64,000 bases of DNA from an uncultured Acidimicrobiales bacterium (GTDB taxonomy: Bacteria > Actinomycetota > Acidimicrobiia > Acidimicrobiales > SZUA-35). How positions within the stretch are numbered: the stretch's first letter is position 1; every line of letters begins with the position of its first letter. The translations under genes were made by a program, and so were the position numbers. The stretch is taken from contig CAKZXA010000076.1 of the NCBI GenBank assembly GCA_937922045.1, positions 1-64,000 on the forward strand. Direction: 5' to 3'. Shown piece by piece: positions 1,443 through 55,300 of this stretch. Under the pieces are notes generated by a model that worked only from the letters and a program-made list of their open reading frames with translations, ran no database searches and was not told where the DNA came from.

Positions 1443-1578
1443 AACCGGACCGTACAGAAAGGAACCTGTGAGCCAGCTAAGACCCAGAAGCGACGAACAA
1501 CGAGCAATCCAGTACGACAATCCTCGTTGCCAACGTCGCTTAGACACTTCTCAGAGAGTATGGGCTTACATCACGATC

Positions 1579-1872
1579 ATGAACACGAACAGTCATCCCC
1601 CATCGTTGGCCCACCGGCTCCCCACGAGTGATGGCTTTAGCCGCGCAGGACGCCTCGTCACGACATCACTCGGTGCGCTGGTGTTTCTGATTTCGGGCTG
1701 CAGCCCAACCGACGACAAGGCCACAACCACAACCACAACCGCAGCTGCCGTCAGTGCCGTCGTCAGTGCCGACACTACAACGACGGTCACCTCGAGCGAA
1801 TCACCGGCCGCTGATGCCACGTCCGAGCACCTCGGTGGCGCCCGATTCATCGTCACGCTGCCGGTCTCGTGA
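1579..1872 (+). CDS. Small Thr/Ala-rich putative lipoprotein
   Basis: A 97-residue predicted lipoprotein of unknown function. The start ATG at 1579 is preferred over a farther upstream one because the peptide then begins with a short polar stretch, a hydrophobic run (TTSLGALVFLISGC) and a clear lipobox LISGC. After the cysteine there is a low-complexity Thr/Ala/Ser/Val segment (runs of ACA/ACC and GCC codons), and the protein ends about 16 residues later. No folded domain is visible, so it may be a spacer-type lipoprotein or the 5' remnant of a longer exported protein. No strong Shine-Dalgarno is seen. It is divergent from the M1 lipoprotein, and the 1443-1578 interval probably holds both promoters. 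Confidence 0.5.
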   Translation: MNTNSHPPSLAHRLPTSDGFSRAGRLVTTSLGALVFLISGCSPTDDKATTTTTTAAAVSAVVSADTTTTVTSSESPAADATSEHLGGARFIVTLPVS

Positions 1873-1894: not shown

Positions 1895-2011
1895 CTAGAC
1901 GATGTTGCTGACAACCCAGATGATGAACACGACCGACAAAACGATAATGGCGACAGCCGCAAGACCGTCCCGACTCGCTTCTGTAGCGGTCCCCTGAGGC
2001 TCTTCGTTCAT
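1895..2011 (-). CDS. 38-residue single-span membrane peptide downstream of the RdhA-like gene
   Basis: Short peptide with a polar N-terminus (about 16 residues, acidic) and one strong transmembrane segment (LAAVAIIVLSVVFIIWVV). Start ATG 2009-2011 is chosen because GAGGGGAG lies 5-6 bases upstream; an in-frame ATG eight codons earlier has a weaker site. It begins 69 bases after the stop of the reductive-dehalogenase-like gene in the same direction, so co-transcription is likely. Classical respiratory RdhA enzymes are anchored by a separate RdhB. This peptide is much shorter than RdhB and is not recognisably homologous, so a partner role is only a hypothesis. Confidence 0.5.
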   Translation of the reverse strand: MNEEPQGTATEASRDGLAAVAIIVLSVVFIIWVVSNIV

Positions 2012-2080
2012 CTGGTTGCTCCCCTCGCCATGCATCAAATCAACCTCGACCGCAACCCTAGGGCCTCCTCGGGAGGAACG

Positions 2081-4180
2081 CTAACCACGATCGATTCCGA
2101 CTCGAGCCTTCGCTGCGGCCGGTGTCTCGGCCTGTTCACCTCGACGGATCGCCTCCTTGCGCTCAAGCTTGACCGGCACCCACCGGTTGTCGCCGGCGGG
2201 CAGCATGTCGGGTTCGTACAGGGCGATCTTCTGCTTGTCAGCGATGCGACCACCATTCAGATCGAGCTCCCGAGCATTTGTTCCTTTCGACGGCAACGTG
2301 GTCTTGCCGCCGCGCCATTCTAAGTCCCACCACCATTTCTTAAGGGGGTTGATAGAGCCGTTGCCGACTCGATCGTCCAACGTGGCGATGAATCTCCGCG
2401 CGAAAGGAAGTTTGATCGCGGCCCACAGGAAGATCCGCTCAGAGAGTACCCCTTCGATGTTGTAGGGGCACGTCTTCATGCAGCGGCCACAGGCCGAACC
2501 CTTCAGGTTGCCCAACCGGTACTTCGTACATTTCTCAACGTCGGGTTTCCAGGTCTCATAGCCGTTAAACATGATCTTGTCGCCGAACGGTATGGCGCCA
2601 CACGGGCACTCTCGGGCGCACTTCGTGCACTTCTGGCAGAAGTCCTGAAGACCAAAATCAATTTTTCGGTCCGGTGTGATCGGCATGTCGGTTGTGACGA
2701 CGACCGACTTGAACCGCGGACCAACAAACGGGTTGAGAACCAGCTCGCCGATTCGGCTCATCTCGCCGAGGCCAGCCTCGAGCACGAGGGGGATGTGGAG
2801 TACCTCTGAGTCACGGTTGGTATGGCTACGTGCGCTGAAACCAAGCGATCGGAGATGCTCGGCCATGATCCCAGCGATCTGGGCGCCACGCATATAGGCC
2901 CGCATCGACTGGGCTCCGGACACCCAATCGTCGCCGCTCGCGCCTTCCATCGTTTCGTAGCCCTGATCGAGGAGAATCACGACCCCGTAACGATGACGAG
3001 GTTCGATCTCTTCGCCAGCCCCATTGTGCGAGTACCACGCATACTCAGGGACTTCACAGACCCCGACCATGTCGCCGCCAAGGTGATAGGCGAATGCCTT
3101 CAGCGCATCAGCATTGCGATCGGGATCATCGGTTTCCAGCGCGATCGTGGCCGCAACGTCACCATCCTGGTGTGGGACCATGGCAGCGATCTGTTGGATG
3201 TACGACTGTGCCTGCGGTGTCTTGTAGGCGAAGACCTTCACGTCCTTCTGGAACTTCGGCCCAAGGTCGCCATGGGCTGCCCGCGGGAATCCCCCAGCAC
3301 GAACGGGGACTCGTCGCACCTCATCGGGGATGATCAGGGTCGTCGCCTCCGGAACTCGCTTGATTCGTTCCATCGGGTACCGACCCATGTGCAGGGGGCG
3401 GTGGTCGCCGTTAAGCCGACCCAACCCGGCTCTGGTCCCACCCCGACCGAGCATCCAGCCGAGCGATCGTGTTGTGTCGAGTGATTGCTTCAGACCACGT
3501 GGAGCTAGAGGTGCGTCTTGTGCCATCTCGAGGTCTGTGGCCACCACTGAAAGGGCAAACCCGCCCTCTATGTAGGGCGCCCTGAGCACGCCATTCACCG
3601 ACTCGATGAGGCCGCACTCAAGAGCGACACGTTCAAGGTCGAGCTCGGAAGCGGTCGGCGTGTGAGCAACCGCGGCAAACCCGAGCCGGCGGATATAGCC
3701 GGCGGTGATGACGGCGAGCTCAGCGGCTCGCAGGTCGGCGTTTATCTGTCGGGTTCCGTCGATCCAGGCGTCACCCGGCTGATCGGTGCCAACCGACCGG
3801 GAAAACGCGATCAAGGTCACCACCGAGAACCGGTGACGAATAGCCTCACCATCTGTCCATGCGGCCTCTGGGATACGTCCACACCCAACCATGTCGGCAT
3901 CGAGGAAGTAGAGCCCGCTCTTTATATGAGCAGCTCTCTCACCCCGATCTTCTGGGACCGGCGCAAGCTCGGCAACATCGCCCCTGCGCTGCTCATCGAA
4001 CATTTCTACGTACCGCTGGTAGGCGTGCGAAGCCCCCAGCGGTCCTTCGGTGCGGGTTTCGGCTGGGCGGACTCCGTCGACAACCGGCGAAAAGGCCGCC
4101 TGGTCAGCCAACCTGGGCAGGCGTTCAAGAGGATACGGCCCGAGGTGAACTGGGCGCGACGCATGCGAAAACAGCTTCAT
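2081..4180 (-). CDS. Cytosolic cobalamin/Fe-S reductive-dehalogenase-like protein (tandem-repeat type)
   Basis: A 699-residue member of the RdhA superfamily resembling the aerobic NpRdhA/BhbA type, which removes halogen from organohalides using cobalamin and two [4Fe-4S] clusters. The Fe-S module is at about residues 515-574: CQKCTKCARECP, then a lone Cys, then CGRCMKTCPYN. The body is an internal duplication: HLGPYPLERLPR near the start recurs as HMGRYPMERIKR near residue 290, and GLYFLDADMVGCGRIPEAAW matches HLGGDMVGVCEVPEYAW. This agrees with the known vestigial-plus-active B12 domain pair. No twin-arginine signal is present, so it is probably cytoplasmic and non-respiratory. Start ATG 4178-4180 follows GAGGAG by 8 bases; an upstream GTG at 4195 lies at that site and is less likely. 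No cobalamin riboswitch is seen upstream. Substrate unknown. Confidence 0.88.
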   Translation of the reverse strand: MKLFSHASRPVHLGPYPLERLPRLADQAAFSPVVDGVRPAETRTEGPLGASHAYQRYVEMFDEQRRGDVAELAPVPEDRGERAAHIKSGLYFLDADMVGCGRIPEAAWTDGEAIRHRFSVVTLIAFSRSVGTDQPGDAWIDGTRQINADLRAAELAVITAGYIRRLGFAAVAHTPTASELDLERVALECGLIESVNGVLRAPYIEGGFALSVVATDLEMAQDAPLAPRGLKQSLDTTRSLGWMLGRGGTRAGLGRLNGDHRPLHMGRYPMERIKRVPEATTLIIPDEVRRVPVRAGGFPRAAHGDLGPKFQKDVKVFAYKTPQAQSYIQQIAAMVPHQDGDVAATIALETDDPDRNADALKAFAYHLGGDMVGVCEVPEYAWYSHNGAGEEIEPRHRYGVVILLDQGYETMEGASGDDWVSGAQSMRAYMRGAQIAGIMAEHLRSLGFSARSHTNRDSEVLHIPLVLEAGLGEMSRIGELVLNPFVGPRFKSVVVTTDMPITPDRKIDFGLQDFCQKCTKCARECPCGAIPFGDKIMFNGYETWKPDVEKCTKYRLGNLKGSACGRCMKTCPYNIEGVLSERIFLWAAIKLPFARRFIATLDDRVGNGSINPLKKWWWDLEWRGGKTTLPSKGTNARELDLNGGRIADKQKIALYEPDMLPAGDNRWVPVKLERKEAIRRGEQAETPAAAKARVGIDRG

Positions 4181-4331
4181 CGGTTTGCTCCTCACACCTG
4201 GCAGGGATGGAGGTCCCTGTTCATGAAACTATAGACGCCGGTCGATGTCTGCGAGTAGCCAACAGGCCGGAGGCGATTTGGTAGCGGCCTGACGGGCAGG
4301 TTCCGGCCTCTCTGTGGTACACCGGAGAACC

Positions 4332-4475
4332 ATGAGCCGTCCGACGGGCAAGAGCCGTGTTACCAAAAAGCACATTCCGGTCGATGGGGAACGTCGCCGA
4401 CGCAAGCACGGCGATCACTTCCACGATGAGCAGTGGTGCGAAACCCACAAACAGTGGGAGCCAGTTCAGCGGTAG
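4332..4475 (+). CDS. Small basic protein of unknown function
   Basis: A 47-residue highly charged peptide (RRRRKHGDHFHDEQWCETHKQW in its centre to C-terminal half, interrupted here only by notation) with no recognised domain. GGAG lies 4-5 bases before ATG 4332, and the gene is divergent from the RdhA-like gene. Codon third positions are GC-rich, as in neighbouring genes. Its shortness makes the call tentative. Confidence 0.4.
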   Translation: MSRPTGKSRVTKKHIPVDGERRRRKHGDHFHDEQWCETHKQWEPVQR

Positions 4476-4510: not shown

Positions 4511-5434
4511 CTACCTAGGCAGCCTTTCGACGACCGCACGCAGATGGTCGGGGCCGATGCCACAGCATCCGCCGATCATCGTTGCGCCAGCGGCTTGCCA
4601 CGCAGGGACGTAGGCGGCGTACTGCTCAGGGGTGACAAGACCCTCGAAGGTCAATTCACCATCGACGATCTCGGCCGCGTGGGCGTAGGCACCAAGCGGC
4701 CCGTTCCAAACCTCCCGGATGGCGGCCAAACCCCTTTCGGTCAGACGTACGTCGGAATGCATCAGGCAGAAGGCGTCAACGGCTCCGTAGGCCTTTGCAA
4801 CCTCCACCGCCTCGGCCAGCGCTCCGCTTTCACGGAGCTGAATCTCAACGCCGAGTTGGTCGGCATCGTGTCCTTCTTCAGGGCCGATGGTGAGACCGAC
4901 CCAGATCGGAAGATCTACGACCGAAACCGCGTCGAGCGTGGCAGTCATCCTTGGAAGGTCGACCATCATTTCCAAACTCAACATCTCAGCGCCAGCGTCA
5001 CGCATGATCGTGGCCTGAATCACCGTGTTGTCATGAAGGGCCTTGAGCGAAGGCCGCTCGCCGGAGAAACTCCAGTTGCTGATACCGCCGCCGACCACGA
5101 CGTGATCTGCGTCATCACCGGCATTGGTCCGAGCTTCGATCGCAAGCTCAACGGCTCGACGGTTATGGGCCTCGAAGTCATCGGCGACACCAGCGTCTTC
5201 CAACACATTCCGACCGGTCGCAAAAGTGTTAGAGACGATCAGGTCTGCGCCAATGGCGACATAGTCGCTGTGCACTTGTCGGACGATGTCCGGATGGCTA
5301 AGAGCGGCGCCGCCGCTCCAGCCGTTGGGCAGTTCCGGCACTCCCCTACGCAGACACTCCGAACCGGTTGCGCCATCGATGACGACCGGGGCTCCAGTTC
5401 GTGCTCGGAGAAGAAGTTCGTCGTAGCGACTCAT
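4511..5434 (-). CDS. Homocysteine S-methyltransferase family protein
   Basis: A 307-residue zinc-dependent (beta/alpha)8 methyltransferase of the homocysteine S-methyltransferase family (MmuM/BHMT-like), which moves a methyl group from S-methylmethionine, betaine or a similar donor to homocysteine to give methionine. The N-terminus has the typical VVIDGATGSECLRRG. Zinc ligands are the Cys in DAFCLMHSD and the C-terminal pair GGCCG. No cobalamin-binding domain follows, so it is not full-length MetH. Start ATG 5432-5434 has GGAG about 7 bases upstream; an ATG four codons earlier lacks this. It is the third gene of a minus-strand run after the acyl-CoA ligase and CitE-like genes, 88 bases downstream. 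The donor cannot be told from sequence. Confidence 0.85.
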   Translation of the reverse strand: MSRYDELLLRARTGAPVVIDGATGSECLRRGVPELPNGWSGGAALSHPDIVRQVHSDYVAIGADLIVSNTFATGRNVLEDAGVADDFEAHNRRAVELAIEARTNAGDDADHVVVGGGISNWSFSGERPSLKALHDNTVIQATIMRDAGAEMLSLEMMVDLPRMTATLDAVSVVDLPIWVGLTIGPEEGHDADQLGVEIQLRESGALAEAVEVAKAYGAVDAFCLMHSDVRLTERGLAAIREVWNGPLGAYAHAAEIVDGELTFEGLVTPEQYAAYVPAWQAAGATMIGGCCGIGPDHLRAVVERLPR

Positions 5435-5522
5435 CGGAGGCTCCATTCATCGGCAGGCTCTTCGATGCTAATGCGAGTGCGCACGCAGGGCCTACTGCGA
5501 TGGCCGTGTCGACGCTGCCGGC

Positions 5523-42391: not shown

Positions 42392-44011
42392 ATGGACATA
42401 GCGGTGAAGCACGAATCAGCCATCGCTGGGTGGGCCGCCACCGCCGCGCCTGCGTTCGGGGCAACCGAGATCCTCGGTGCGATCCAGCGAGTTCGCGAAG
42501 CCACCGCCGTCGTGACCGACCCCGCGACCGGCCGGGCCGGGATCGCTATCGACGGCACCCTCACTGCCGCACATCAGGCGGGGGCCTGGCCCGTAACCGC
42601 CGTTCTACCGCCGTTGTATCCCGAATGGCTTGGCGACCGCGGCTTCACAGAGATCCACGGAACCCGGTTTCCCTACGTCACCGGGGCGATGGCCAATGGC
42701 ATCGCTACCACCCATCTCGTCATCGAAACGGCTCGAGCTGGGTGTTTGGGATTCTTCGGTGCTGGCGGTCTGGCCTTCGAACGCGTGCGACATGCGGTCG
42801 ATGAGTTGGTCAGCGCCCTCGGCGAAACCGCTCCATGGGGATGCAACCTCATCCACTCACCGAACGAACCAGCGCTGGAAGCGGCGGTAGCGAACCTCTA
42901 CCTCGAACGCGGTGTTCGCCGGGTTTCCGCCGCGGCCTACATGGCTCTGACCCCCGCAATCGTTCGCTACGCCTACAGCGGCGTGCACCTCGACGGCCAC
43001 GGTGTCGTCCAACGACCAAACATGGTGTTGGCCAAGATCTCCCGTCCAGAGGTGGCCGCCCACTTCATGAACCCGGCCCCCGAGTCGCTGCTGGCACGTC
43101 TGGTCGCAACCGGCGAACTCACAGTCGCCGAGGCCCAGCTGGCCGCAACCCTCCCGGTAGCGGAGGATTTTGTCGTCGAAAGCGACAGTGGCGGCCATAC
43201 CGACAACCGCCCCCTGGGCCCCTTGTTCTCCGCCATCCAGTTCGTTCGCGACGATGTTTGCGCCAGGCGCGGCTACCACCGTCCGATCCGGCTTGGGGCG
43301 GCCGGAGGCATCGGTACGCCACAAGCCGTGGCTTCGGCATTCGCCCTCGGCGCATCCTTCGTTTTGACCGGCACCATCAACGAGTCCTGCGTCGAATCTG
43401 GGCTGTCATCAGAGGGCAAGGAGATGCTGGCTCAGGCTGGGCTCGCCGACATCGCAATGGCGCCTGCAGCCGACATGTTCGAACTCGGCGTCGATCTTCA
43501 GGTGTTGCAGCGCGGCACCATGTTCGCCCCCCGAGCCAAACAGCTCTACCGGCTCTACCGCGCCTATCCCTCGCTGGAGGCCATACCGGCCGACGAAGTC
43601 AGTGAACTCGAAACGAAAACGCTTGGGATGACCCTCGACGAGTGTTGGGCCTCGACCCGTACCTTCTGGATGGATCGCGACCCTGACGAGGTGGTCAAAG
43701 CGGAAGCCGATCCCCGCCACAAGATGGCCCTCACCTTCCGCAGTTACCTTGGACAGTCGAGCCGCTGGGCTATCGATGGACAATCCGACCGCCGCCTCGA
43801 CTATCAGATCTGGTGCGGACCAGCAATGGGGGCGTTCAATGCCTGGACCGAAGGATCGTTCCTTGCCGAACCCGCAAACCGCACCGTCTCACAGATCGCC
43901 AAAAACATGCTCGAAGGCGCGGCTGTCTTGACCCGCGCTCAGCAGCTCCGAAGCTACGGCGTAGCGATTCCCGCCGCGGCCTTCAACTACCGACCCCGCC
44001 CCCTCGACTGA
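42392..44011 (+). CDS. pfaD: PfaD-like trans-acting enoyl reductase
   Basis: A 539-residue FMN-dependent enoyl reductase of the PUFA-synthase PfaD type (nitronate-monooxygenase/FabK-like TIM barrel). Signature stretches are PYVTGAMANGIATTHLV, AGCLGFFGAGGL, ESDSGGHTDNRPLGPL (flavin region), RLGAAGGIGTPQAVASA and GASFVLTGTINESCVESGLS. In PUFA synthases it reduces trans-enoyl-ACP during chain growth. It is the first gene of the operon; pfaA starts 13 bases after it. ATG 42392 is chosen because the upstream in-frame extension lies over the promoter-like element. Family certain; product of the pathway unknown. Confidence 0.92.
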   Translation: MDIAVKHESAIAGWAATAAPAFGATEILGAIQRVREATAVVTDPATGRAGIAIDGTLTAAHQAGAWPVTAVLPPLYPEWLGDRGFTEIHGTRFPYVTGAMANGIATTHLVIETARAGCLGFFGAGGLAFERVRHAVDELVSALGETAPWGCNLIHSPNEPALEAAVANLYLERGVRRVSAAAYMALTPAIVRYAYSGVHLDGHGVVQRPNMVLAKISRPEVAAHFMNPAPESLLARLVATGELTVAEAQLAATLPVAEDFVVESDSGGHTDNRPLGPLFSAIQFVRDDVCARRGYHRPIRLGAAGGIGTPQAVASAFALGASFVLTGTINESCVESGLSSEGKEMLAQAGLADIAMAPAADMFELGVDLQVLQRGTMFAPRAKQLYRLYRAYPSLEAIPADEVSELETKTLGMTLDECWASTRTFWMDRDPDEVVKAEADPRHKMALTFRSYLGQSSRWAIDGQSDRRLDYQIWCGPAMGAFNAWTEGSFLAEPANRTVSQIAKNMLEGAAVLTRAQQLRSYGVAIPAAAFNYRPRPLD

Positions 44012-44024
44012 TTCGGCTCATCTC

Positions 44025-47000
44025 TTGCACCACAACCACGACTCCAAGCGCCCACCGATCGCCGTCGTTGGCGTGTCGGCCCTGTTTCCTGGATCTGTCG
44101 ATTCGACAGGATTTTGGGACGACATTCTTCGCGGCACCGATCGCATGAGCGCGGTACCGGCCAGCCATTGGTTGATCGATGACCACTACGATCCGGACAT
44201 GCTGGCGCCGGACAAGACCTACGGGCGTCGTGGTGGCTTTCTCGACCCAATCGACCTTGACCTCATGAAGTTCGGCATCCCTCCGGTGGCGGTTCCGACC
44301 ACCGACACAGCCCAGCTGCTCGCCCTCATCGTGGCCCAACGAGTACTCGACGACGCGGTCACCGGGCAGTTCACCGAGCTCGACCGCACTCGAGCCTCGG
44401 TGATCCTCGGCGTCACCTCGGGCCAGGAACTTCTCGGTGCGATGGCCAGCAGAATGAATCGACCGATGTGGCTGCAAGGTATGCGGCGCGCCGGTGTGCC
44501 CGAAGACGTCGCCCTCGAAGCATGTGAACAGATCGCCGACCTACACCCAGCGTGGCAGGAGAGCACGTTTCCTGGGCTCCTCGGGAATGTGGTGGCGGGG
44601 CGTATCGCCAATCGCCTCGACCTCGGAGGTACCAACTGTGTGACCGACGCGGCATGCGCCTCATCGTTCTCAGCGTTGTCGATGGGGGTCAATGAGCTTT
44701 ACCTCGGCGACAGCGATCTCGTCATCGCTGGCGGCGTCGACACGATGAACGACATCTTCATGTACATGTGCTTTTCAAAGACACCAGCATTGTCGCCGTC
44801 CGAAGACATCCGCCCCTTCTCCGACAAGGCCGACGGCACGATGCTCGGCGAAGGCATCGGGATGGTTGCGCTCAAGAGACTCGAAGACGCCGAGCGAGAC
44901 GGCAACCACATCTACTGCATCGTCAATGCCGTCGGTGCCAGCTCCGATGGCCGCTCAAAGAGCGTCTACGCACCGGTCTCTGAGGGCCAAGCGCGAGCGC
45001 TCACGAACACGTATGCGAAGGCCGGCTATCAGCCCGACACGGTCGAACTGGTCGAGGCTCATGGCACCGGCACCGTGGCCGGCGATGCCGCAGAGTTCGG
45101 TGGTCTTGAATTGGCCTTCGACCGTTCCGGCCGCGTCGATCGCCAATGGTGCTCCCTCGGTTCGGTGAAGAGCCAGATCGGACACACAAAGGCAGCGGCC
45201 GGCGCCGCTGGTCTCGTCAAGGTCATTATGGCCCTGCACCATAAGGTGCTGCCGCAAACAGCAAAGATCGACCAACCAAATCCGAAGCTCGATCTCGAGG
45301 CCTCTCCCTTTCACCTCAACACCATGACGCGGCCATGGGTGCGAGGATCAAACCACGAGCGCCGGGGCTCGGTGAGTTCGTTCGGTTTCGGCGGCTCCAA
45401 CTTCCACGTCGCCATGTCGGAGTATGTCGGTTCTGGTGTCCGCGCCCCTCGTCTTCGCACGACCGACGCTGAGCTCGTCGTGCTCCAGGGCACCGACGGC
45501 AGCGACATCATGGCCCAGGCCCGTGAACATCTGGCGGCCTGCTCAGCCGGCGGATACCTCGCGTGGCTCGCCCACTCGACCCAGGCGGCGTATGACCCGA
45601 GCGCCAACGCTCGGCTCGCCCTCGTCGCTGTTGACGCTACGGATCTTGAGACCAAGCTCGGTGCCGCCATCGACCGCATCGCCGCCGACCCAGCAGCCGC
45701 CTTCTCAACCCCAACAAGGGTGCACTACGGCCTGGGCGCCCACCGTGGTGATGTCGCCTTCGTCTTCCCTGGGCAGGGCAGTCAGTACCTGCATATGGGG
45801 TCTGGTCTCGCCACCCATTTCGATCAGGCCATCAAGCCGTGGAATGTAGCCGCTGACCTCGACGGGGACGGCGACACGTTGCAGGGCGTGGTGTTCCCGG
45901 TTCCACGTTTCGAGGAGAACGCCGCTGAACAGCAGGCCGAGAGGCTGACGGCCACCCGCTGGGCCCAACCCGCCATTGGGGCGACAAGCCTCAGCTACCT
46001 ACGCATGCTGCGACAGATCGGGCTTGAGGCCGCACACGTCGGTGGCCATAGTTTCGGTGAGATCACCGCTCTACATGCCGCTGGTGTTTTCTCTGAGGTC
46101 GACATGCTGCGCGTGGCGCGGCGGCGCGGGGAGCTGATGGCTGAGGCCGCACAGACCCCCGGATCGATGACGGCTGTGGCTGCAACCATCGACGAGGTGC
46201 GGACCCTCGTTCAACAATCGGGGATCGACGTTGTCGTGGCCAACCACAACCACCACGGCCAGGTGGTTCTCTCCGGACCAACGACAGCGATCGACGAGGT
46301 CGAAGGCGTGCTCGGTTCCGCCGGGCTAACGTTCAAGCGTCTGCCGGTGGCGACAGCCTTCCACTCCCCTGTCGTCAGCGCGGCGAGTGGAGCCTTCACC
46401 CGATCACTCGACTCGATCAGCGTCGAACCGGCCACGATCCCGGTCTACGCCAACGAGACGGCCGCCGTCTACCCGATCGGCGGCGCGGAGGTCCGCAATC
46501 AGCTCGGTCGTCAACTCGCCAACCCTGTCCGCTTCGTTGAAATGATTCAAGCAATGCACGACAACGGTGCCCGCACCTTTGTTGAGGTCGGCCCAGGATC
46601 GACCCTCACCGGTCTCGTCGACCGCATCCTCGACGAAAGCGACTACAGCGCCATTGCTCTCGACAAGAAGAAGGCATCCGGCTTGGGCGCCTTCCTCGGG
46701 GGTCTGGCCCAGCTTGCAGCCCGCGGTGTCGCCATGGACCTCGGTTCGCTCTGGAAGGAATACGCCGACGTCGAGAACCCAGCCGAAGTCGTCGCTCCGA
46801 AGCTCACTATTGCCATCAACGGGGCCAATCATGGCAAGCCGTACCCACCTGCAGACCTCGGCGAGCTCGTCGGCCCAAACGTCACCGCTCCAAAGACCAT
46901 CGCTAGCCACGATCCACCGACTCCCCCAGCACCTGCCCCCACCCCTGTCACACCTCAACCTGTTCCTGAACCTGTTCCTGCCCCGCTCGCCGTAGCGGCC

Positions 47001-49304
47001 CCAACAACTGATCGGACCCAACCCATGGTCACGAGCCAAACCTCTGTCCCTGTACCCGCCGCCGTCCATGCCAACGGTGCTGCCCCGAGCACCGGGGTTC
47101 TCGCTGCCTACCAGTCGGTACAAGAACACACCGCTGAGGCCCACGCCGAGTATCTCCGCTCCACTGCCCTGGCCCACACCGCCTTCATGACCGCTGCCCA
47201 GCAAGGCCTCGCGGTTCTTGGCCAGCTTGCAGGTGGCTCCGGCGCGGCACCCCCCACCGTTCCCGCACCACCGCCCCTCGCCCCCGTAATCTCTCCTGCA
47301 CCTCCACCAACACCTGCACCAACACCTCCCCCGGCTCCGGTCCACGTTCCAGTTCCCCCTCCACGTCCCTCGGCTCCGGTTGCGGCATCCGCCCCGGCGC
47401 CGACGGTCGCTGCCGCCCCGGCGCCTCTCACACCCACACCTGTACCCGCACCTGTCATCTCTGCACCAGCGCCTTTACCGATCGCCACTCCGGCGCCTAG
47501 CGGACAAGCGTTGACCTCCGACGAACTTATGGCGCTGCTGTTGTCGGTGGTTGCCGACAAGACCGGGTATCCATCGGAGATGTTGACGATGGAGATGGAA
47601 CTCGAAGGTGACCTCGGTATCGACTCCATCAAGCGGGTCGAGATCCTTAGCGCCATGCAGGACGAGGTCCCGACGTTACCCGAGGTCGATACGTCTGTGA
47701 TGGCAGAGCTGATAACGCTCGGCCAGATCGTCGACTACATGTTCGGCCAAATCAAGGGAGGTGACACGCCCCCTTTTGATGGTGGGGCAACCGCCCCCGC
47801 TGCCATCATGTCTACTGCCGTCACGCCCGCTCCGCTCGGCCGGTTCCGACTCCGCTCTGTGGCGGCGCACGCAAGCGGCGAACCGCTGCCGGGCCTCCGA
47901 GGTTCAACCATCGCCGTCGTCGACGACGGTACCGGCATAGCTCCAGCCCTCGCCACCTTGCTCGTGGCCGCAGGCATCTCCGCCACCGTGGCCGAAACGG
48001 TCGACAACTCGGTCGATGGGGCCATCTTCCTCGGAGGCCTCCGGCCAATCGCAACAGTCGACGACGCGTTGGCGGTGAACCGTCAGGCCTTCGTCATCGC
48101 TCGGTCACTAGCAACGGGTCCTAAACCGGCGCGCCTACTCGTCACCGTGTCCGATCTCGGAGGCGACTTCGGCATCGGTAAACCCAACCACCTTCATGCC
48201 TGGAGTGCTGGGCTCACAGCACTCATCCGAACCGCAGCGATCGAGTGGCCAGATGCCAGCCTGCGGGCCATTGACATCGACCATGCCGATAGCGACGCTG
48301 GCGCCATCGCCGCGGCGATCGCTGAAGAGTTGCTCACCGGGGGCACCGAGCTCGAGATCGGTCTCGCGGCCGACGGCAGGCGGACGACGCTGCAAAGCGA
48401 ACCAGCGGCCGTCTCGGTGGGATCGTGCCCACTAGGCGCCTCCGACGTCGTGGTCGTGTCGGGAGGTGGCCGAGGTGTCACCGCCGCCACAATGATCGAA
48501 CTGGCCCGGGCATCGGGCGCAACCTTCGTACTGCTCGGACGGTCAGCGCTGGCCGACGAGCCTCCATCTTGCGCAACCGCCACCAACGATGCCGAGCTCA
48601 AGAAGGTCTTGCTCGCGGAGGCAACCGCCTCAGACACACCCATCACGCCGCCAGAGTTGGCTCGCCGATCCTCACAGATCCTGGCGGCCCGGGAGGTTCG
48701 CCAAACGCTGGCCGCCATCGAGGAAACCGGTGGACGGGCGCACTACGTCCCCGTCGACATCACCGATCGCGAGGCTGTCGCGACGACGTTGGACTCGGTG
48801 CGAGCGGAACGAGGACCGATCACCGCTGTCGTCCACGGCGCTGGCGTGCTCGCCGACAAGCTGATCGCCGACAAGTCTGACGCCGCCTTCGCCTCCGTTT
48901 TCGACACAAAGGTTCTCGGCCTTCGAGTGCTACTCGACACGACTCGCCACGATTCGTTGAAGGTGCTGTGCCTGTTCTCATCGGTCGCAGCCCGCACGGG
49001 GAACCGAGGCCAGGTCGACTACGCAATGGCCAACGAAATCTTGAACAAGGTCGCAGTCGCAGAGCACGTTCGCCGAGGGTCGGGTTGTGTCGTCAAATCA
49101 TTCGGGTGGGGGCCCTGGGATGGCGGCATGGTCAGCCCCTCGCTCAAGGCTCACTTCGAGGCGATGGGCACAACGCTCATCCCTCTCGATGCTGGATCTC
49201 GCATGCTGGTCGACGAGCTCTCAAGCCCGCAGACCGATGAGGTCGAACTCGTTATCGGTGGCGGCGTGCTCCCAGCCAGCATCGTGACTTCCGGGCATTC
49301 GTGA
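44025..49304 (+). CDS. pfaA: PfaA-like PUFA/polyketide synthase subunit: KS-AT-ACP-KR
   Basis: A 1759-residue type I iterative synthase subunit. KS (about 10-450): Cys211 in DAACASSF, His in VEAHGTGTVAGD and GSVKSQIGHTKAAAG. AT (about 575-880): FVFPGQGSQYLHMG and GGHSFGE with Ser676. A Pro/Ala linker follows (about 960-1160). A single ACP (about 1165-1245) has DLGIDSIKRVEIL with Ser1201 as the phosphopantetheine site. KR (about 1270-1755): VVSGGGRGVT, Ser1653 and Tyr1666 (VDYAMAN). Known PUFA synthases carry four to nine tandem ACPs; one is unusual. The KR ends the protein, and no DH follows. The start is TTG 44025, 13 bases after pfaD. Confidence 0.94.
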   Translation: MHHNHDSKRPPIAVVGVSALFPGSVDSTGFWDDILRGTDRMSAVPASHWLIDDHYDPDMLAPDKTYGRRGGFLDPIDLDLMKFGIPPVAVPTTDTAQLLALIVAQRVLDDAVTGQFTELDRTRASVILGVTSGQELLGAMASRMNRPMWLQGMRRAGVPEDVALEACEQIADLHPAWQESTFPGLLGNVVAGRIANRLDLGGTNCVTDAACASSFSALSMGVNELYLGDSDLVIAGGVDTMNDIFMYMCFSKTPALSPSEDIRPFSDKADGTMLGEGIGMVALKRLEDAERDGNHIYCIVNAVGASSDGRSKSVYAPVSEGQARALTNTYAKAGYQPDTVELVEAHGTGTVAGDAAEFGGLELAFDRSGRVDRQWCSLGSVKSQIGHTKAAAGAAGLVKVIMALHHKVLPQTAKIDQPNPKLDLEASPFHLNTMTRPWVRGSNHERRGSVSSFGFGGSNFHVAMSEYVGSGVRAPRLRTTDAELVVLQGTDGSDIMAQAREHLAACSAGGYLAWLAHSTQAAYDPSANARLALVAVDATDLETKLGAAIDRIAADPAAAFSTPTRVHYGLGAHRGDVAFVFPGQGSQYLHMGSGLATHFDQAIKPWNVAADLDGDGDTLQGVVFPVPRFEENAAEQQAERLTATRWAQPAIGATSLSYLRMLRQIGLEAAHVGGHSFGEITALHAAGVFSEVDMLRVARRRGELMAEAAQTPGSMTAVAATIDEVRTLVQQSGIDVVVANHNHHGQVVLSGPTTAIDEVEGVLGSAGLTFKRLPVATAFHSPVVSAASGAFTRSLDSISVEPATIPVYANETAAVYPIGGAEVRNQLGRQLANPVRFVEMIQAMHDNGARTFVEVGPGSTLTGLVDRILDESDYSAIALDKKKASGLGAFLGGLAQLAARGVAMDLGSLWKEYADVENPAEVVAPKLTIAINGANHGKPYPPADLGELVGPNVTAPKTIASHDPPTPPAPAPTPVTPQPVPEPVPAPLAVAAPTTDRTQPMVTSQTSVPVPAAVHANGAAPSTGVLAAYQSVQEHTAEAHAEYLRSTALAHTAFMTAAQQGLAVLGQLAGGSGAAPPTVPAPPPLAPVISPAPPPTPAPTPPPAPVHVPVPPPRPSAPVAASAPAPTVAAAPAPLTPTPVPAPVISAPAPLPIATPAPSGQALTSDELMALLLSVVADKTGYPSEMLTMEMELEGDLGIDSIKRVEILSAMQDEVPTLPEVDTSVMAELITLGQIVDYMFGQIKGGDTPPFDGGATAPAAIMSTAVTPAPLGRFRLRSVAAHASGEPLPGLRGSTIAVVDDGTGIAPALATLLVAAGISATVAETVDNSVDGAIFLGGLRPIATVDDALAVNRQAFVIARSLATGPKPARLLVTVSDLGGDFGIGKPNHLHAWSAGLTALIRTAAIEWPDASLRAIDIDHADSDAGAIAAAIAEELLTGGTELEIGLAADGRRTTLQSEPAAVSVGSCPLGASDVVVVSGGGRGVTAATMIELARASGATFVLLGRSALADEPPSCATATNDAELKKVLLAEATASDTPITPPELARRSSQILAAREVRQTLAAIEETGGRAHYVPVDITDREAVATTLDSVRAERGPITAVVHGAGVLADKLIADKSDAAFASVFDTKVLGLRVLLDTTRHDSLKVLCLFSSVAARTGNRGQVDYAMANEILNKVAVAEHVRRGSGCVVKSFGWGPWDGGMVSPSLKAHFEAMGTTLIPLDAGSRMLVDELSSPQTDEVELVIGGGVLPASIVTSGHS

Positions 49305-49317
49305 CGAGGGCTTATCC

Positions 49318-52300
49318 GTGACATCGTTTCCCCCAATCGCCATCGTTGGCCGAGCCTGCCTCCTACCGGGAGCTTCGAATCCCGACGAACTTTGGCAGGC
49401 GGTCGTCGAGGGCCGCGACCTTGTGACTCGCGTTCCGCACGATCGATGGGGCATCGCGCCCAACGACGTTCTGTGCGAAGGCCCGGCCGACAGCGCCGAC
49501 CGCACATGGTCCGATCGCGGCGGCTACGTGCAGGGATTCGAATCACTCTTCGATCCGGAGGGTTTCGCCATTAGCGCCGAGGAGATCCGATCCCTCGACC
49601 CGGTCTTCCAATGGACGTTCCATACCGCCAGAGCAGCTCTCCAAGACGCTGGCCATGCCGACGCCGATCCGCAACGCTTCGGCGCTGTGCTCGGCAACCT
49701 GTCGTTTCCGTCGGCCGGTATGGCTGCCTTCGTCGAAGCGACAACGATCGCCCGTGTTGCCGGCTATGGTCCTGACGCGCTGGCCGCCGCCAACGTCGCA
49801 CCGGCCGATCCCCGCAACCGCTTTACCTCCGGGCTGCCCGCACTTCTTCTGGAGCGTGCCCTTGGGCTCGGCGGCGGCGCTTACGCGCTCGATGCTGCCT
49901 GTGCCAGCAGCTTGTACGCCATCAAGCTCGCCTGCGACCGCCTTCACGATGGCGACGCCGACCTCATGCTCGCAGGCGCCGTCAACTGCGCCGATGATCT
50001 CTGCATCCATCTCGGCTTCTCAGCCCTGACCGCGATGAGCCGCACCGGCCAATCGCGCCCATTTCACGCCGACGCCGATGGCCTCGTCCCGGCAGAGGGC
50101 TGCGCCTTCGTGGCCCTGCGACGCCTCGATGACGCCATGCGGGACGGTGATGTCATCCACGGAGTCATCCGCAGCGTAGGACTCTCGAACGACGGGCGAG
50201 GGCGCGGGATGCTCGTACCGTCGAGCGACGGCCAGGTACGGGCCATGAGCGCCGCTCTCCGCATCGCTCGGCTCGAGGCGGTCGACGTTTCCCTGCTCGA
50301 GTGCCATGCAACCGGCACCGTGGTCGGAGACGCTACCGAGATTCGTTCGTCGGCATCTGTCTATGAAGGCTGCGAGGGCCTGCCGATTGGCTCCCTGAAG
50401 TCAAATACCGGTCACCTCATCACCGCGGCCGGTGTTGCTGGTCTCATCAAGGTGATCGAGGCGATGCGGCACGAAGTCCGGCCGCCGACTATTCATGCCG
50501 ACGAGCCCATCGCCGATCTTGAGGCCTCGCCATTCCGCCTCCTGACGCAGGCTGAACCCTGGGATCGAAGCACCATCCGCGACGGCGTGCTTCGGGCTGG
50601 CGTGTCGGCCTTCGGCTTCGGCGGCAACAACGCTCACCTGCTTGTGGAAGAACCAACGCCGGTCGGCTCACCGGCAGCGCCACCGCCGGTACCACCGCCG
50701 ATGCCAGGCTTGGGGGTGCCGATCGCGATCGTCGGTATCGGCGTAACTGCGGCATCAGCGGTCGGACGCCAGGCCTTTACTGAAACGCTTCTGACCAACG
50801 TTTCGTGCCTCGATGAGAACGGCGTGGGAACGATGCCACCGGTCTCGCTCGACCTCGCCGTGCAGAAGTTCCCGCCCAACGATCTCGACAAGACGCTGGT
50901 CCAGCAACTCGCCATGTTGCAGGTCACCCACGAGGCGGTCGCTGATACCCCGACCCTCCGTCCGGCGTCGACCGGCGTTTACGTTGGTATGGGGACCGAT
51001 GCTGAGGCCGCTCGCTTCGGTGTTCGCTGGCGCTTGGCGACTCGCGGCATTGCCTGGGGCCAATCCGGCGAGTGGATCGCCGATGCTCGTGACCATGTGG
51101 GCCCTGTGCTCGATGCACCGGCGGTGCTCGGCACGATGCCGAATATCGTGGCCAATCGTCTGAACAGCCAGTTCGACTTTGCCGGACCGAGTTTCACGGT
51201 GAGTTCAGAAGAACACAGTGGGCTCGATGCGTTCCGTATAGCGACAAGAGCGCTCAAGGCACGTGAACTCGATGCCGCCATTGTTGGTGCTGTCGACCTG
51301 TCGTGCGAGCCCATTCACCGGGCGGCGGCAGCAAGCTGTCTCCATGATGATCGCCAAACTCCCGGTGACGCGGCTGTAGCGATCGTCCTCAAACGGCTCG
51401 ATGACGCCGAACGAGACGGTGACACCATCTACGCGCTTGTTCCCGGCGGCCGCCATGACGAGCATGGGGTTCGCCAAGACGACCGCCCCGACCTGACGCT
51501 CGGACTCAGCGCCACGGCCACGAGTATTGTCAAACAGTTTGGCCACGCCCATGCCGCCAGCGGACTGGTCCATACAGCGGCCGCTGCGATCCTTCTGCAC
51601 CATCGCACCGGACTGGGGAACGTACCGTTGCTCGCCTCGAATCCAGCGAGTGGTAGCGGACTCCCCGATGGTGCCGGCCCCCGTACCATCGCTGTCGAAG
51701 TCGACGCGATGGAAGGCGTCGCCGCCCGGTCACTACTGCTGGTCGAGGCGAGTAGACACCCCGGGCCAGGCCGCACGAACGCACCCCGTCTCCACATCTT
51801 TTCCGGAGCGGATGATGCTGCCGTGCTCAGGAGCCTCGATGCAGGCGACGAGACCAACATTGGACCTGCCCGGCTGGTGATCGTTGCCGACGGGGATGAC
51901 CAATTGCGCCAGCGAACCGCTCGGGCGCGACGCCACATCGAGGACGGCCACCCTCCGGGGGAGGGAGTACGGTTCCAACGACAACCTCTCGAAGGCGAGC
52001 TGGCTTTCGTGTTCACAGCAGCCGGTGCCGCCTACGCCGGCATGGGCGCTCAACTCCTGCGAGCGATTCCGGAGTGCGCTGACGTCGTCGCTGAATCATT
52101 CCCGCTTGGAGAAACCGCCTCGTGGGTATACGGCGATCCTCACTATGAGCCAACACCGAGCGACTTCCTTTGGGGCACATCATTGTTGAGCTCCGCGCAC
52201 ACACATCTCACCCGTCAGATACTCGCTCTGAAGCCGACCGCAGCCATCGGGTATTCGTCGGGCGAGAGCAACAGTCTCTTCGCTTTCGGCATCTGGTCTG

Positions 52301-55300
52301 ATCGCGCCGCCATGCGATCCGAGATCGTTGCCAGTGGAATGATGGATCGGGAACTGGGCATCGATTTCACCGCCGTGGCCCGAGCATGGGGTGAACTATC
52401 AGCCAGCTGGGCGATGTGGAACGTCCTTGCCCCGATCGACGATGTGAGGGGAGCCATCGCCGACGAAGATCGGGTGCACCTCGCCATCATCAACACGCCC
52501 AACGACTCGATCATCGGCGGCGAGAGCGAAGCCTGTGAACGAGTGATCGAGTCGCTCGGTCGGCGCCGATGCCGTCTCGTGTCGTACAACCTTGCCTGCC
52601 ACGTACCCGAGGTTCGCCACGGCTTCCATCAACCCTGGCTCGACGTTCACACCCGCACCGTCACCCCAATGCCCGGCATTCGGCACTACTCCAACGGCAC
52701 GAACGGTGCCTACAACGTAAGCACAAGGGCCTGCGCCGAAGCCATCACCCACCAGGCGGAAAACACCGTCAACTTCCCGGCTACGATCGAAGCCGCCTAT
52801 GCCGACGGTGTCCGCATCTTCGTCGAACACGGCCCAGCTGGGGCCTGCACGAACTTCATCGCTGAGATCCTCGGGGATCGTGACCACCTGGCTATCCAGC
52901 TCGACCGACGCGACAAGAACCTCGAACAGATCTTCGAGGTGGCTGCGGCTCTGGTCGCGGCTGGGGTTGAGGTAGACCACCAGGCTCTGAGCGCCCGGCT
53001 GACCAGAGCGCGCCCAACCGAGCGCACCCCCGCTGAGCTCACCACGAACCGCTCCCGAACGTTCGCCGCACATCCAGAACCCGCGACCCTTCCGCCTCGT
53101 AACGATCAGATTGCGAGTCCCTGCACCGTGCCGTCGACAGATACACCTCCGACAGACACGCCGCGTCAGCGAATGGCCCCGGCACCATGGCTACCTCCGG
53201 TTGGAACAGCCGAAACCGGTGCTCCGTTGGCACAAGTGCTAAACGCTCATTCCTCTGACGCCAACCCAGATCACCTGGCCCAACAAATCCATGCGAATTT
53301 CATGGAGATGGTGGCGCTCCACGACGGCTTCATCCAGCAACGAGCAGTCCTCCATAACCAGTTCCTCGACGGGCAGTTCGCTGAAGCTCACGCCTTGTCG
53401 GCTACCGAGTCGGCCACTATCCCTGCACCGCCTCCGGACGAGCAGGCCGCCGGAGAACCAAACGCTGGCCCTGGCAACGTCCACTGGGACAAGCGACAGT
53501 TGGAGATCCACTCCTCCGGTACCATCTCGGAGCTGTTCGGCCCGCTTTTCGAGCCCCAGGACGGACGGGTCATTCAGTGTCGTATGCCGGAGCCGCCGTT
53601 GCTCCTCGCTGATCGCGTCGTCGGCATCGACGCCACCCCAGGCGTGTTGGGCACCGGCACCATCTGGACCGAAACCGACGTCGTCGCCGATGCCTGGTAT
53701 CTCAACGACGGCTACATGCCGACGGGCTTCATGATCGAATCGGGCCAGGCCGACCTGATGCTGATTAGCTACATGGGCATCGATCTGATCAGCGGCGACG
53801 ACCGGGCCTACCGCCTGCTCGGCTGCACGCTCACCTACCACGGCGATCTGCCCACCGCAGGCGACACCCTCGAGTACGAGATCCGGATCACCGGCCACGC
53901 GAAACACGGTGATGTTCGGTTGTTCTTCTTCGAGTACGACTGCCTCGTCGATGGCCAACCCCGTCTCACCGTTCGAGACGCCCAGGCCGGTTTCTTCAAC
54001 CGCCAGGAACTCGCCGACGCTCTCGGCGTCTTGTGGACACCCGAGGCAGCCGCGGGCGAGCTCGATCCGGATGCGCGGGTCGATCCCCCGGCAATTCCGA
54101 GCACCAAGTCCGCCTTCTCCGAGACCGAAGTGATCGCCTTCAGCGAAGGTCGTATCGTCGACTGCTTCGGGCCAGCCTTCGCGTGGGCTCATACCCACAC
54201 CCGCACACCCAAGATCCAGTCTGGCGACCAGCTGTTCATCGATGAGATAACGACCTTCGACCCGACAGGCGGGCCGTGGGGGCGCGGCTTCATGCGATGT
54301 GAGACCAGCATCGCCGATGACGCCTGGTTCTTTGATGGACACTTCAAGAACGACCCGTGCATGCCCGGCAACTTCATGGTGGAGGCCTGTATCGAAGCAC
54401 TGTCCTTCTACCTCGCGGCCATGGGCTTCACCATGAAGCTCGACGGGTGGCGCTTCCAGCCGCTGCCTGGGCAACCGTTCGAACTCAAATGTCGCGGGGA
54501 GATCAACCCTCGAACCGACCGTGTCGTGTACGAAGTCAATGTCGAGGAGGTCTGGAACGGCCCGCACCCGACGGTGATCGCCGATGTCGTTGGGTTCGTC
54601 GACGGCCACGCTGCCTTCCACGCCCACCGGATTGGCGTGGAGCTCACACCAAGCTGGCCGCTAACCTCGATGGCTGAACTCTACGAGGGCGTCGTTGAGC
54701 CGGTGAATGTTGCCACCGACAGCGAAGGCTTCGCTTTCGATTGGAAGGCAATGATCTCCTGTGCTTGGGGGCGACCTTCGGAAGCCTTCGGCTCGATGTA
54801 TTCGATGTTCGACGGCACCCGCCGGTCGCCCCGACTTCCCGGACCGCCCTATCACTTCATTAGCCGGGTCACGCAGATCGAGGGTGACCTCGATGTCTGC
54901 ACCGCCGGCATGAAGATCGTCTGCGAGTACGACATCCCTGACGACGCCTGGTACTTCGATGAGAACGGGGCGGAGACGATGCCGTTCGCCGTGTTACTTG
55001 AGGCTGCGCTCCAGCCATGTGGCTGGGTGGCCTCGGCCGTCGGGTCGGCAACGGCGATCGATGACGACATGCTGTTCCGCAATCTCGACGGCACCGGCAC
55101 CGTCACCGGCGAGCTCACCCGCACCGACGGCACCCTGACTACCCAGGTCGAACTCACCGGTGTCTCTCGCGCCGGGGGCATGGTCATCGAGGAGTTCGCC
55201 GTTGAGTGTTTTCTCGGCGACCGGTCGGTCTACACGATGACGACGGTCTTCGGCTTCTTCCCGCCGGAGGCGTTCGACAACCAGGTCGGCCTGCCCGTAC

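Follow-up and report, generated by a model that had tools for sequence, protein, structure and literature searches.

A predicted NpRdhA-type reductive dehalogenase and a probably unrelated small membrane peptide encoded side by side in an uncultured Acidimicrobiales bacterium

Introduction

Catabolic reductive dehalogenases (RdhAs) are divided, in the accessible part of PMC10463259, into self-sufficient enzymes that carry a reductase domain, such as BhbA and JtRdhA, and a clade without it that includes NpRdhA. The same text gives a vestigial duplication as the mark of the class, and follows the aerobic bromoxynil route of BhbA as far as 4-carboxy-2-hydroxymuconate-6-semialdehyde. Here we describe a gene of this kind, rdhA, and the gene for a 38-residue membrane peptide beside it, in a 64,000-base stretch of DNA from an uncultured Acidimicrobiales bacterium. 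This stretch, which we call the window, comprises bases 1-64000 of the 93,648-base contig C76 in a 4.88-Mb draft genome, G000. A first-pass annotation made from the sequence alone had placed rdhA at 2081-4180(-) and the peptide gene at 1895-2011(-), coordinates that proved right, and had suggested that the peptide might be an anchor or redox partner of a new kind for the dehalogenase. We find instead that the two are probably unrelated genes lying side by side: one for a truncated catabolic RdhA, the other for a displaced member of a peptide family linked to LIV-type ATP-binding cassette (ABC) transporters. In open-licence PMC papers on RdhA in Acidimicrobiia and Acidimicrobiales we found no description of the clade to which this RdhA belongs; the accessible part of PMC12472701 places RdhA genes only in two gammaproteobacterial metagenome-assembled genomes (MAGs).

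Results

The rdhA product resembles NpRdhA over its full length

The reading frame 2081-4195(-) is open over 704 codons and gives 699 amino acids from the ATG at 4180 or 704 from a GTG at 4195. The ATG is the likelier start, because it aligns with the N-terminus of NpRdhA and has the stretch GAGGAG 7 nt upstream. The protein matched the reductive dehalogenase family model TIGR02486 at 175.9 bits (cut-off 160.35) and the solved NpRdhA structures (PDB 4ras and 6zxu) over residues 5 or 6 to 700, with E about 1e-195. Pfam matches up to E 1 were of the Fer4 type only.

As the first-pass annotation had claimed, the protein contains a tandem repeat. Residues 11-231 (3503-4165(-), 704-residue numbering) aligned with residues 263-513 (2657-3409(-)) at E 1.8e-44 and 30% identity in hhalign, and at 31% identity in blastp; a profile match of this strength between the two halves means that the internal duplication is real. 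The N-terminal copy of the cobalamin-binding domain may be called vestigial by analogy with NpRdhA, as that protein is presented in the accessible part of PMC10463259, and the second copy is, by alignment with NpRdhA, the predicted functional core for cobalamin and substrate. In this core, Y434, K496 and S430 correspond to Y426, K488 and S422 of NpRdhA, and G302 and G427 stand at the positions of its F290 and A419. Conservation and alignment also point to two [4Fe-4S] motifs (2468-2638(-)), formed by Cys 520/523/526/530 and 556/569/572/576, with R560 equivalent to NpRdhA R552.

In an alignment of 87 RdhAs, the window's and NpRdhA included, each of the eight Fe-S cysteines is kept in 86 or 87 rows, the sole exception being a gap, which bears out the earlier claim of two Fe-S clusters. 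The window protein and 85 of 85 other sequences have the equivalents of NpRdhA Y426, K488, S422, M423 and F291; that of R552 is found in the window and 84 of the 85, the remaining one having a gap there. Neither an N-terminal hydrophobic segment nor a twin-arginine (Tat) motif was visible in the translated N-terminus when it was inspected by eye, without a signal-peptide program, in agreement with the first annotation. A C-terminal reductase domain is absent, since the protein stops at residue 704, level with the end of NpRdhA. As far as sequence can show, then, the protein fits the 'truncated' NpRdhA-type catabolic RdhA, of a known family whose enzymes tolerate oxygen, depend on vitamin B12 and remove halogens from phenols. 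Of the NpRdhA/BhbA type first proposed, the catabolic NpRdhA part holds and the BhbA layout, with its C-terminal reductase, falls away.

The protein belongs to an actinobacterial clade with a glycine at the F290 position

In a tree of the 87 RdhAs, the window protein fell inside a 33-row actinobacterial clade (SH-aLRT 100), and NpRdhA grouped with proteobacterial rows. Its highest identity, 81%, was to a protein from an Ilumatobacter MAG. The enzyme is of an established type and falls in a distinct clade. The position of NpRdhA F290, a hydrophobic residue that is among those said, in the accessible part of PMC7565698, to keep solvent out and to orient the substrate, is Gly in the window and in all 32 relatives of at least 70% identity. 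It is Phe in all nine members of the 60-70% group, and Phe (32), Met (10) or Leu (2) in 44 more distant rows. At the A419 position the window likewise has Gly, but so do 82 of the 85 other rows, and A419G is therefore not a mark of the clade.

A second, mostly Acidimicrobiia clade of catabolic RdhAs was made up of eight rows (L016-L020, L098, L104, L105) about 51% identical to the window's protein. Each of the seven f59/g69 genomes with the transporter described below has an RdhA at about this identity, and two of the seven are represented in the tree. G000 itself encodes further RdhA-like proteins. One of 450 residues (C10:59913-61265; L206:7914-9266) exceeded the TIGR02486 cut-off at 165.8 bits, one of 328 residues (C62:40087-41073; L187:12088-13074) reached 111.4 bits, below the cut-off, about 11 kb from the LIV-type transporter, and a third, weak match lay on contig C42.

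Genomic context points to 4-hydroxybenzoate catabolism

A scan of genome contigs gave 441 relatives. From the loci of the best 80 we picked, by title, 42 actinobacterial ones for clustering of their neighbouring genes. A first clustering of open reading frames (ORFs) was spoiled by overlapping spurious ORFs, as the DNA is GC-rich, and codon-scored clustering was used instead. Neighbourhoods were mostly unconserved: the biggest neighbour clusters covered 8 of the 42 loci, all from one 10-row branch of the tree, and no general partner gene emerged beside rdhA among the 42. A cluster of 4-hydroxybenzoate 3-monooxygenases (PobA family) adjoined rdhA in three loci (L057, L058 and L072). The PobA proteins of L058 and L072 passed the TIGR02360 cut-off; L057 is a contig of genome G019, where a PobA over that cut-off lies 46 bp from the rdhA match.

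In G000, pobA (C76:69101-70261) is on the same contig as rdhA, about 65 kb away. It is followed by genes for the protocatechuate 4,5-dioxygenase alpha subunit (ligA) and a class III extradiol dioxygenase beta subunit, both past curated cut-offs, and near it are two meta-cleavage genes, for 4-hydroxy-2-oxovalerate aldolase and acetaldehyde dehydrogenase, each also over its curated cut-off. This pobA-ligAB set mirrors the bromoxynil route of BhbA, and its expected product is the endpoint of that route, 4-carboxy-2-hydroxymuconate-6-semialdehyde. A cobS gene is present in G000 as well. Across 148 related genomes, the set used for all co-occurrence counts, PobA was found in 11 of 19 RdhA-positive and 12 of 129 RdhA-negative genomes (p 4e-6). 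This context hints at halogenated 4-hydroxybenzoates or phenols as substrates of the RdhA.

The peptide belongs to a family found with a LIV-type transporter

The peptide gene (1895-2011(-)) begins 69 bp past the rdhA stop codon, with a Shine-Dalgarno-like stretch, GAGGGGAG (2019-2026(-)), 7 nt before its ATG. The first-pass annotation had described a 38-residue membrane peptide in the same unit as rdhA. The peptide is there; the shared strand and the 69-bp gap are the only signs of co-transcription. One strongly hydrophobic segment (highest 18-residue hydropathy mean 3.18) predicts a single transmembrane helix, and the sequence has neither Cys nor His. Pfam and NCBIfam held no match for it, and open-licence PMC papers on small ABC-transporter subunits and on the DUF3556 domain gave no description of the family.

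Homologues were nevertheless found in other genomes. With the window peptide alone as query against the 148 genomes, the copy in G034 was a clear relative (47% identity, E 7e-6), and there were weaker ones too. A seven-copy profile run over 248 genomes of the order matched its own members in G136, G096 and G000 strongly (the window is among the model members, so that its own profile matches are by construction); G217 and G193 came up as new matches, and G107 as a weaker one, likewise new. The peptide of G347 was a further new match, at E 1e-9. Weak matches in long frames were treated as chance (most of those in 21 genomes with the single query, 36 of 42 with the profile). Two, in G008 (E 0.32) and G022 (E 0.039), show the motif within a short ORF and were retained for that reason, at a stage when we had not yet looked at their surroundings. 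In ten copies the transmembrane segment is preceded by a D-G-x-A pattern. Because homologues exist elsewhere, the peptide is more than a chance ORF; it looks real, a predicted small membrane protein.

The surroundings of these homologues were consistent. For the transporter set we required a binding protein matching at an E of 1e-150 or better, which 14 genomes had; remoter ones in G013, G042 and G094 and an additional one in G012, at 38-45% identity, were left out. In 10 of the 14 the peptide gene immediately precedes that for the binding protein: on the same strand in G008, G012, G034, G096, G136, G193 and G217, and in the same peptide-then-binding-protein arrangement in G297, G345 and G376. 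It lies within the transporter gene cluster in 12 and is present at all in 13. The binding protein is a Peripla_BP_6 protein in the G136 and G034 copies. The next genes of the operon encode a fused LivH/LivM/LivG, then LivF and a DUF3556 protein, identities that come from Pfam for the G136 copies and the G008 permease and from look-alike ORFs in the other genomes. Seven of eight peptide-positive genomes had the transporter, against one of the 140 others (p 2.4e-10), and the link held within the window's own family, f1 (4 of 5 against 0 of 34).

In G000 the two are apart. Its transporter is on contig C62 and its single peptide copy, by profile search, on C76; the window peptide thus belongs to the family by sequence and not by position in the transporter cluster. 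The C62 binding-protein gene lacks an upstream peptide, and between it and the permease gene lies, on the other strand, a gene resembling those for prolyl aminopeptidase, as expected after a rearrangement. The congener G008 has its peptide at the transporter, on contig C14, and its rdhA on C32. From its position, the only evidence used here, the peptide is probably a small accessory subunit of the transporter, acting in trans in G000.

Other genes recur around these clusters. In G136, cobU, cobT and cobS directly precede the peptide and the LIV operon (L138:3146-5819; Pfam), and look-alike cob ORFs in the same order stand before the peptide and transporter in G096 and G217 (L139, L183). A similar-looking ORF for an oxidoreductase of the flavin adenine dinucleotide (FAD) type goes with the transporter cluster in G347 (L211:2201-3652), G107 (L185:2816-4270) and G136 (L188:3016-4371), and adjoins the peptide in the first two.

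The peptide is absent from 82 other rdhA loci

The first-pass annotation had named co-occurrence of the peptide with RdhA in other genomes as one way to check their partnership, and a lack of the peptide next to homologous RdhA genes as part of what would refute it; such a lack is what we observed. We fetched 104 RdhA-bearing loci, which reduced to 87 at 99% identity; 83 of these had at least 300 bp downstream, one being the window. A search with the peptide profile found the peptide in none of the other 82, anywhere in the fetched stretch; 32 of them carry RdhAs at least 70% identical to the window's (9 are at 60-70% and 41 below). Hydrophobic small ORFs do occur within 300 bp of RdhA, on the same strand in 12 of 99 loci and on the other strand in 6 (some loci are repeated, the window three times), but only the window's own looks like the peptide, and the peptide profile missed the rest. 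Since the family goes with the transporter in relatives, the peptide is probably not a new RdhA partner, and we rejected it in that role.

Weighing the alternatives

Several observations weigh against the account of two unrelated neighbours as given here. Two genomes break the immediate succession of peptide and binding-protein genes: in G347 the peptide lies about 4.5 kb away behind the oxidoreductase gene, and in G107 it shares a contig with LivF-like and DUF3556-like ORFs beside a similar oxidoreductase; in G100, a 78% complete genome that has the binding protein, the profile search did not find it. Peptide and RdhA also co-occur (6 of 8 against 13 of 140 genomes, p 4.9e-5), in a table that pools both RdhA clades, scores G107 as positive from a fragment of 149 residues that lies at the end of a contig and has two reported stops, and leaves out a 53%-identical fragment in G006 (residues 4-83). 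All the Fisher tests of co-occurrence ignore the relatedness of the genomes. On the side of the RdhA, the PobA link was not significant within f1 (9 of 14 RdhA-positive against 9 of 25 negative genomes, p 0.086), and relatedness therefore explains part of the genome-wide link; pobA is adjacent in few loci and distant in G000; and no electron donor gene was identified for the RdhA, no model search having been aimed at one. Finally, the clade-specific F290G, together with A419G, sets the pocket apart from that of NpRdhA, so the substrate may differ.

This last point underlies the alternative that survives best, though we think it less likely than not: a catabolic RdhA whose glycine at the F290 position might open the pocket to halogenated phenolics bulkier than 3,5-dihalo-4-hydroxybenzoate. 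The glycine is constant in the clade, it replaces a residue with a described role in orienting substrate, and only 11 of the 19 RdhA-positive genomes have PobA. The hydroxyl-binding and catalytic residues are unchanged, however, and a single residue may matter little.

It is improbable that the peptide, ABC transporter and RdhA form one functional set, in which the transporter would import an organohalide or another needed compound and the peptide would link the two. Transporter and RdhA co-occur across genomes (6 of 8 against 13 of 140), cob genes or their look-alikes precede the peptide and transporter in three genomes, and in G000 the peptide does lie beside rdhA. But within f1 the link between peptide and RdhA did not reach significance (3 of 5 genomes against 11 of 34, p 0.24), and the RdhAs behind the wider link in G034, G096 and G136 belong to the different clade about 51% identical to the window's. 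Moreover, G012 and G100, which have the transporter, had no catabolic RdhA at the thresholds used for the 148 genomes, and 13 of the 19 RdhA-positive genomes had no transporter. We give slightly less credence still to a version in which the peptides are undescribed single-helix accessory subunits of LIV-type transporters in Acidimicrobiia, and one of them moved beside rdhA because the transporter imports a compound that the dehalogenase needs. If this were true, it would tie an uptake system to aerobic reductive dehalogenation.

We consider it very unlikely that the peptide is dedicated to this RdhA, as its membrane anchor or redox partner and a minimal replacement for RdhB. Its place on the same strand just downstream, the similar ribosome-binding stretch ahead of both genes and the higher frequency of RdhA in peptide-bearing genomes would suit such a role. 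None of the 82 other loci has the peptide, however, and its homologues sit in an ABC-transporter cluster; a sequence lacking Cys and His, with one transmembrane segment and a tail of about 16 residues, also speaks against it, and NpRdhA and JtRdhA were purified as soluble proteins according to the accessible parts of PMC7565698 and PMC10463259. It is just as doubtful that the peptide ORF is a chance reading frame: short and without a Pfam or NCBIfam match as it is, it has homologues with the DG-x-A motif in other genera and families, at a constant position at one gene cluster, and a Shine-Dalgarno-like stretch before it. Least probable of all is a respiratory RdhA, since, although the family model and two Fe-S clusters are common to respiratory enzymes, the internal duplication, the lack of a Tat signal by eye and the match to NpRdhA (E 6e-195, against 1e-22 for PceA) all point away from it.

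Other features of the window

Upstream of rdhA lies a gene for a homocysteine S-methyltransferase-family protein (4511-5446(-); PF02574, E 3e-37). No ORF in the loci of the 42 relatives grouped with it, and we found no evidence there tying it to RdhA function. Between the two genes is a 53-codon ORF (4314-4475(+)), basic and His-rich, with no Pfam or NCBIfam match. An ORF convergent with the peptide gene (1468-1872(+)) has a lipobox-like LISGC and a Thr-rich stretch, and no convincing family match in either database. A consensus scan for promoters and terminators gave no promoter-like sites and one terminator-like site, within rdhA on the opposite strand. Elsewhere in the window, 42392-57606 encodes in succession a PfaD-family protein, a PfaA-like synthase (1759 residues, over the TIGR02813 cut-off) and a 2762-residue polyketide-synthase-like protein that has a FabA-type domain; the three make up a synthase cluster of the Pfa type, for fatty acids or polyketides.

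Discussion

From the homology, duplication, cluster cysteines, catalytic residues and pathway genes reported above, we infer the following for fold, location, electron donor, substrate and chemistry. The rdhA product would be a soluble, cytoplasmic, truncated catabolic RdhA whose second half binds cobalamin and two [4Fe-4S] clusters, with the first half, a vestigial copy of the core, presumably filling the dimer interface. A ferredoxin or reductase of low potential would feed electrons into the clusters and through them to the cobalt, where the halogen would be taken, and the proton would come from the Tyr434-Lys496 pair. Ortho-halogenated phenols or 4-hydroxybenzoates are the likely substrates; 4-hydroxybenzoate, as product, could then go to PobA and on to protocatechuate 4,5-dioxygenase. 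The peptide, for its part, would normally belong to the LIV cluster (binding protein, fused LivH/M/G, LivF and DUF3556), mostly directly upstream of the binding-protein gene, and in G000 would have moved away from the transporter to rdhA, most simply by rearrangement.

With these results the NpRdhA-type enzymes come to include a coherent clade from actinobacteria that is marked by a pocket signature of its own, F290G. In some genomes this clade is tied to 4-hydroxybenzoate catabolism, which suggests a route, open to testing, by which little-studied bacteria may turn over halogenated phenolics aerobically. The tempting story of a new RdhA anchor is probably wrong, and in its place comes a small, apparently undescribed family of transporter-linked peptides.

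Among described systems, NpRdhA of Nitratireductor pacificus pht-3B (PDB 4RAS, 6ZXU) is closest, sharing with the window protein a full-length match, the truncated layout, the duplication, the two Fe-S clusters and the residues Y426, K488, R552, S422, M423, F291, F310 and N452. The pockets differ at F290 (Gly in the window), A419 (Gly) and P311 (Ala), and the two proteins part in the tree, NpRdhA to the proteobacterial and the window RdhA to the actinobacterial side. The gene for NpRdhA lies with ferredoxin and reductase genes according to the accessible part of PMC10463259, whereas none was recognised with Pfam and NCBIfam among the few window neighbours scanned. T7RdhA and A6RdhA from Acidimicrobiaceae (PMC10008544) come from the same broad bacterial group, a likeness of origin and not of compared sequences; the accessible part of that paper puts T7RdhA in the PceA branch. 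Ros_A3X954, a marine Roseobacter debrominase that is likened here by its description in the accessible part of PMC13101508 and not by sequence, is an RdhA from an aerobic-type bacterium and acts on 2,6-dibromophenol. BhbA (Comamonas sp. 7D-2) and JtRdhA share the duplicated core and catabolic role with the window protein, and are set apart, by layout and not by sequence comparison, by a C-terminal phthalate-dioxygenase-reductase domain that it does not have.

The RdhB or PceB anchors of respiratory RdhAs are, like the window peptide, small membrane proteins encoded beside rdhA; the peptide has only 38 residues, one transmembrane segment and no family match in Pfam or NCBIfam. A likeness by description, not by sequence, is to KdpF, a tiny protein with a single transmembrane segment that is encoded with its transporter, as the peptide family is with an ABC transporter of the LIV type.

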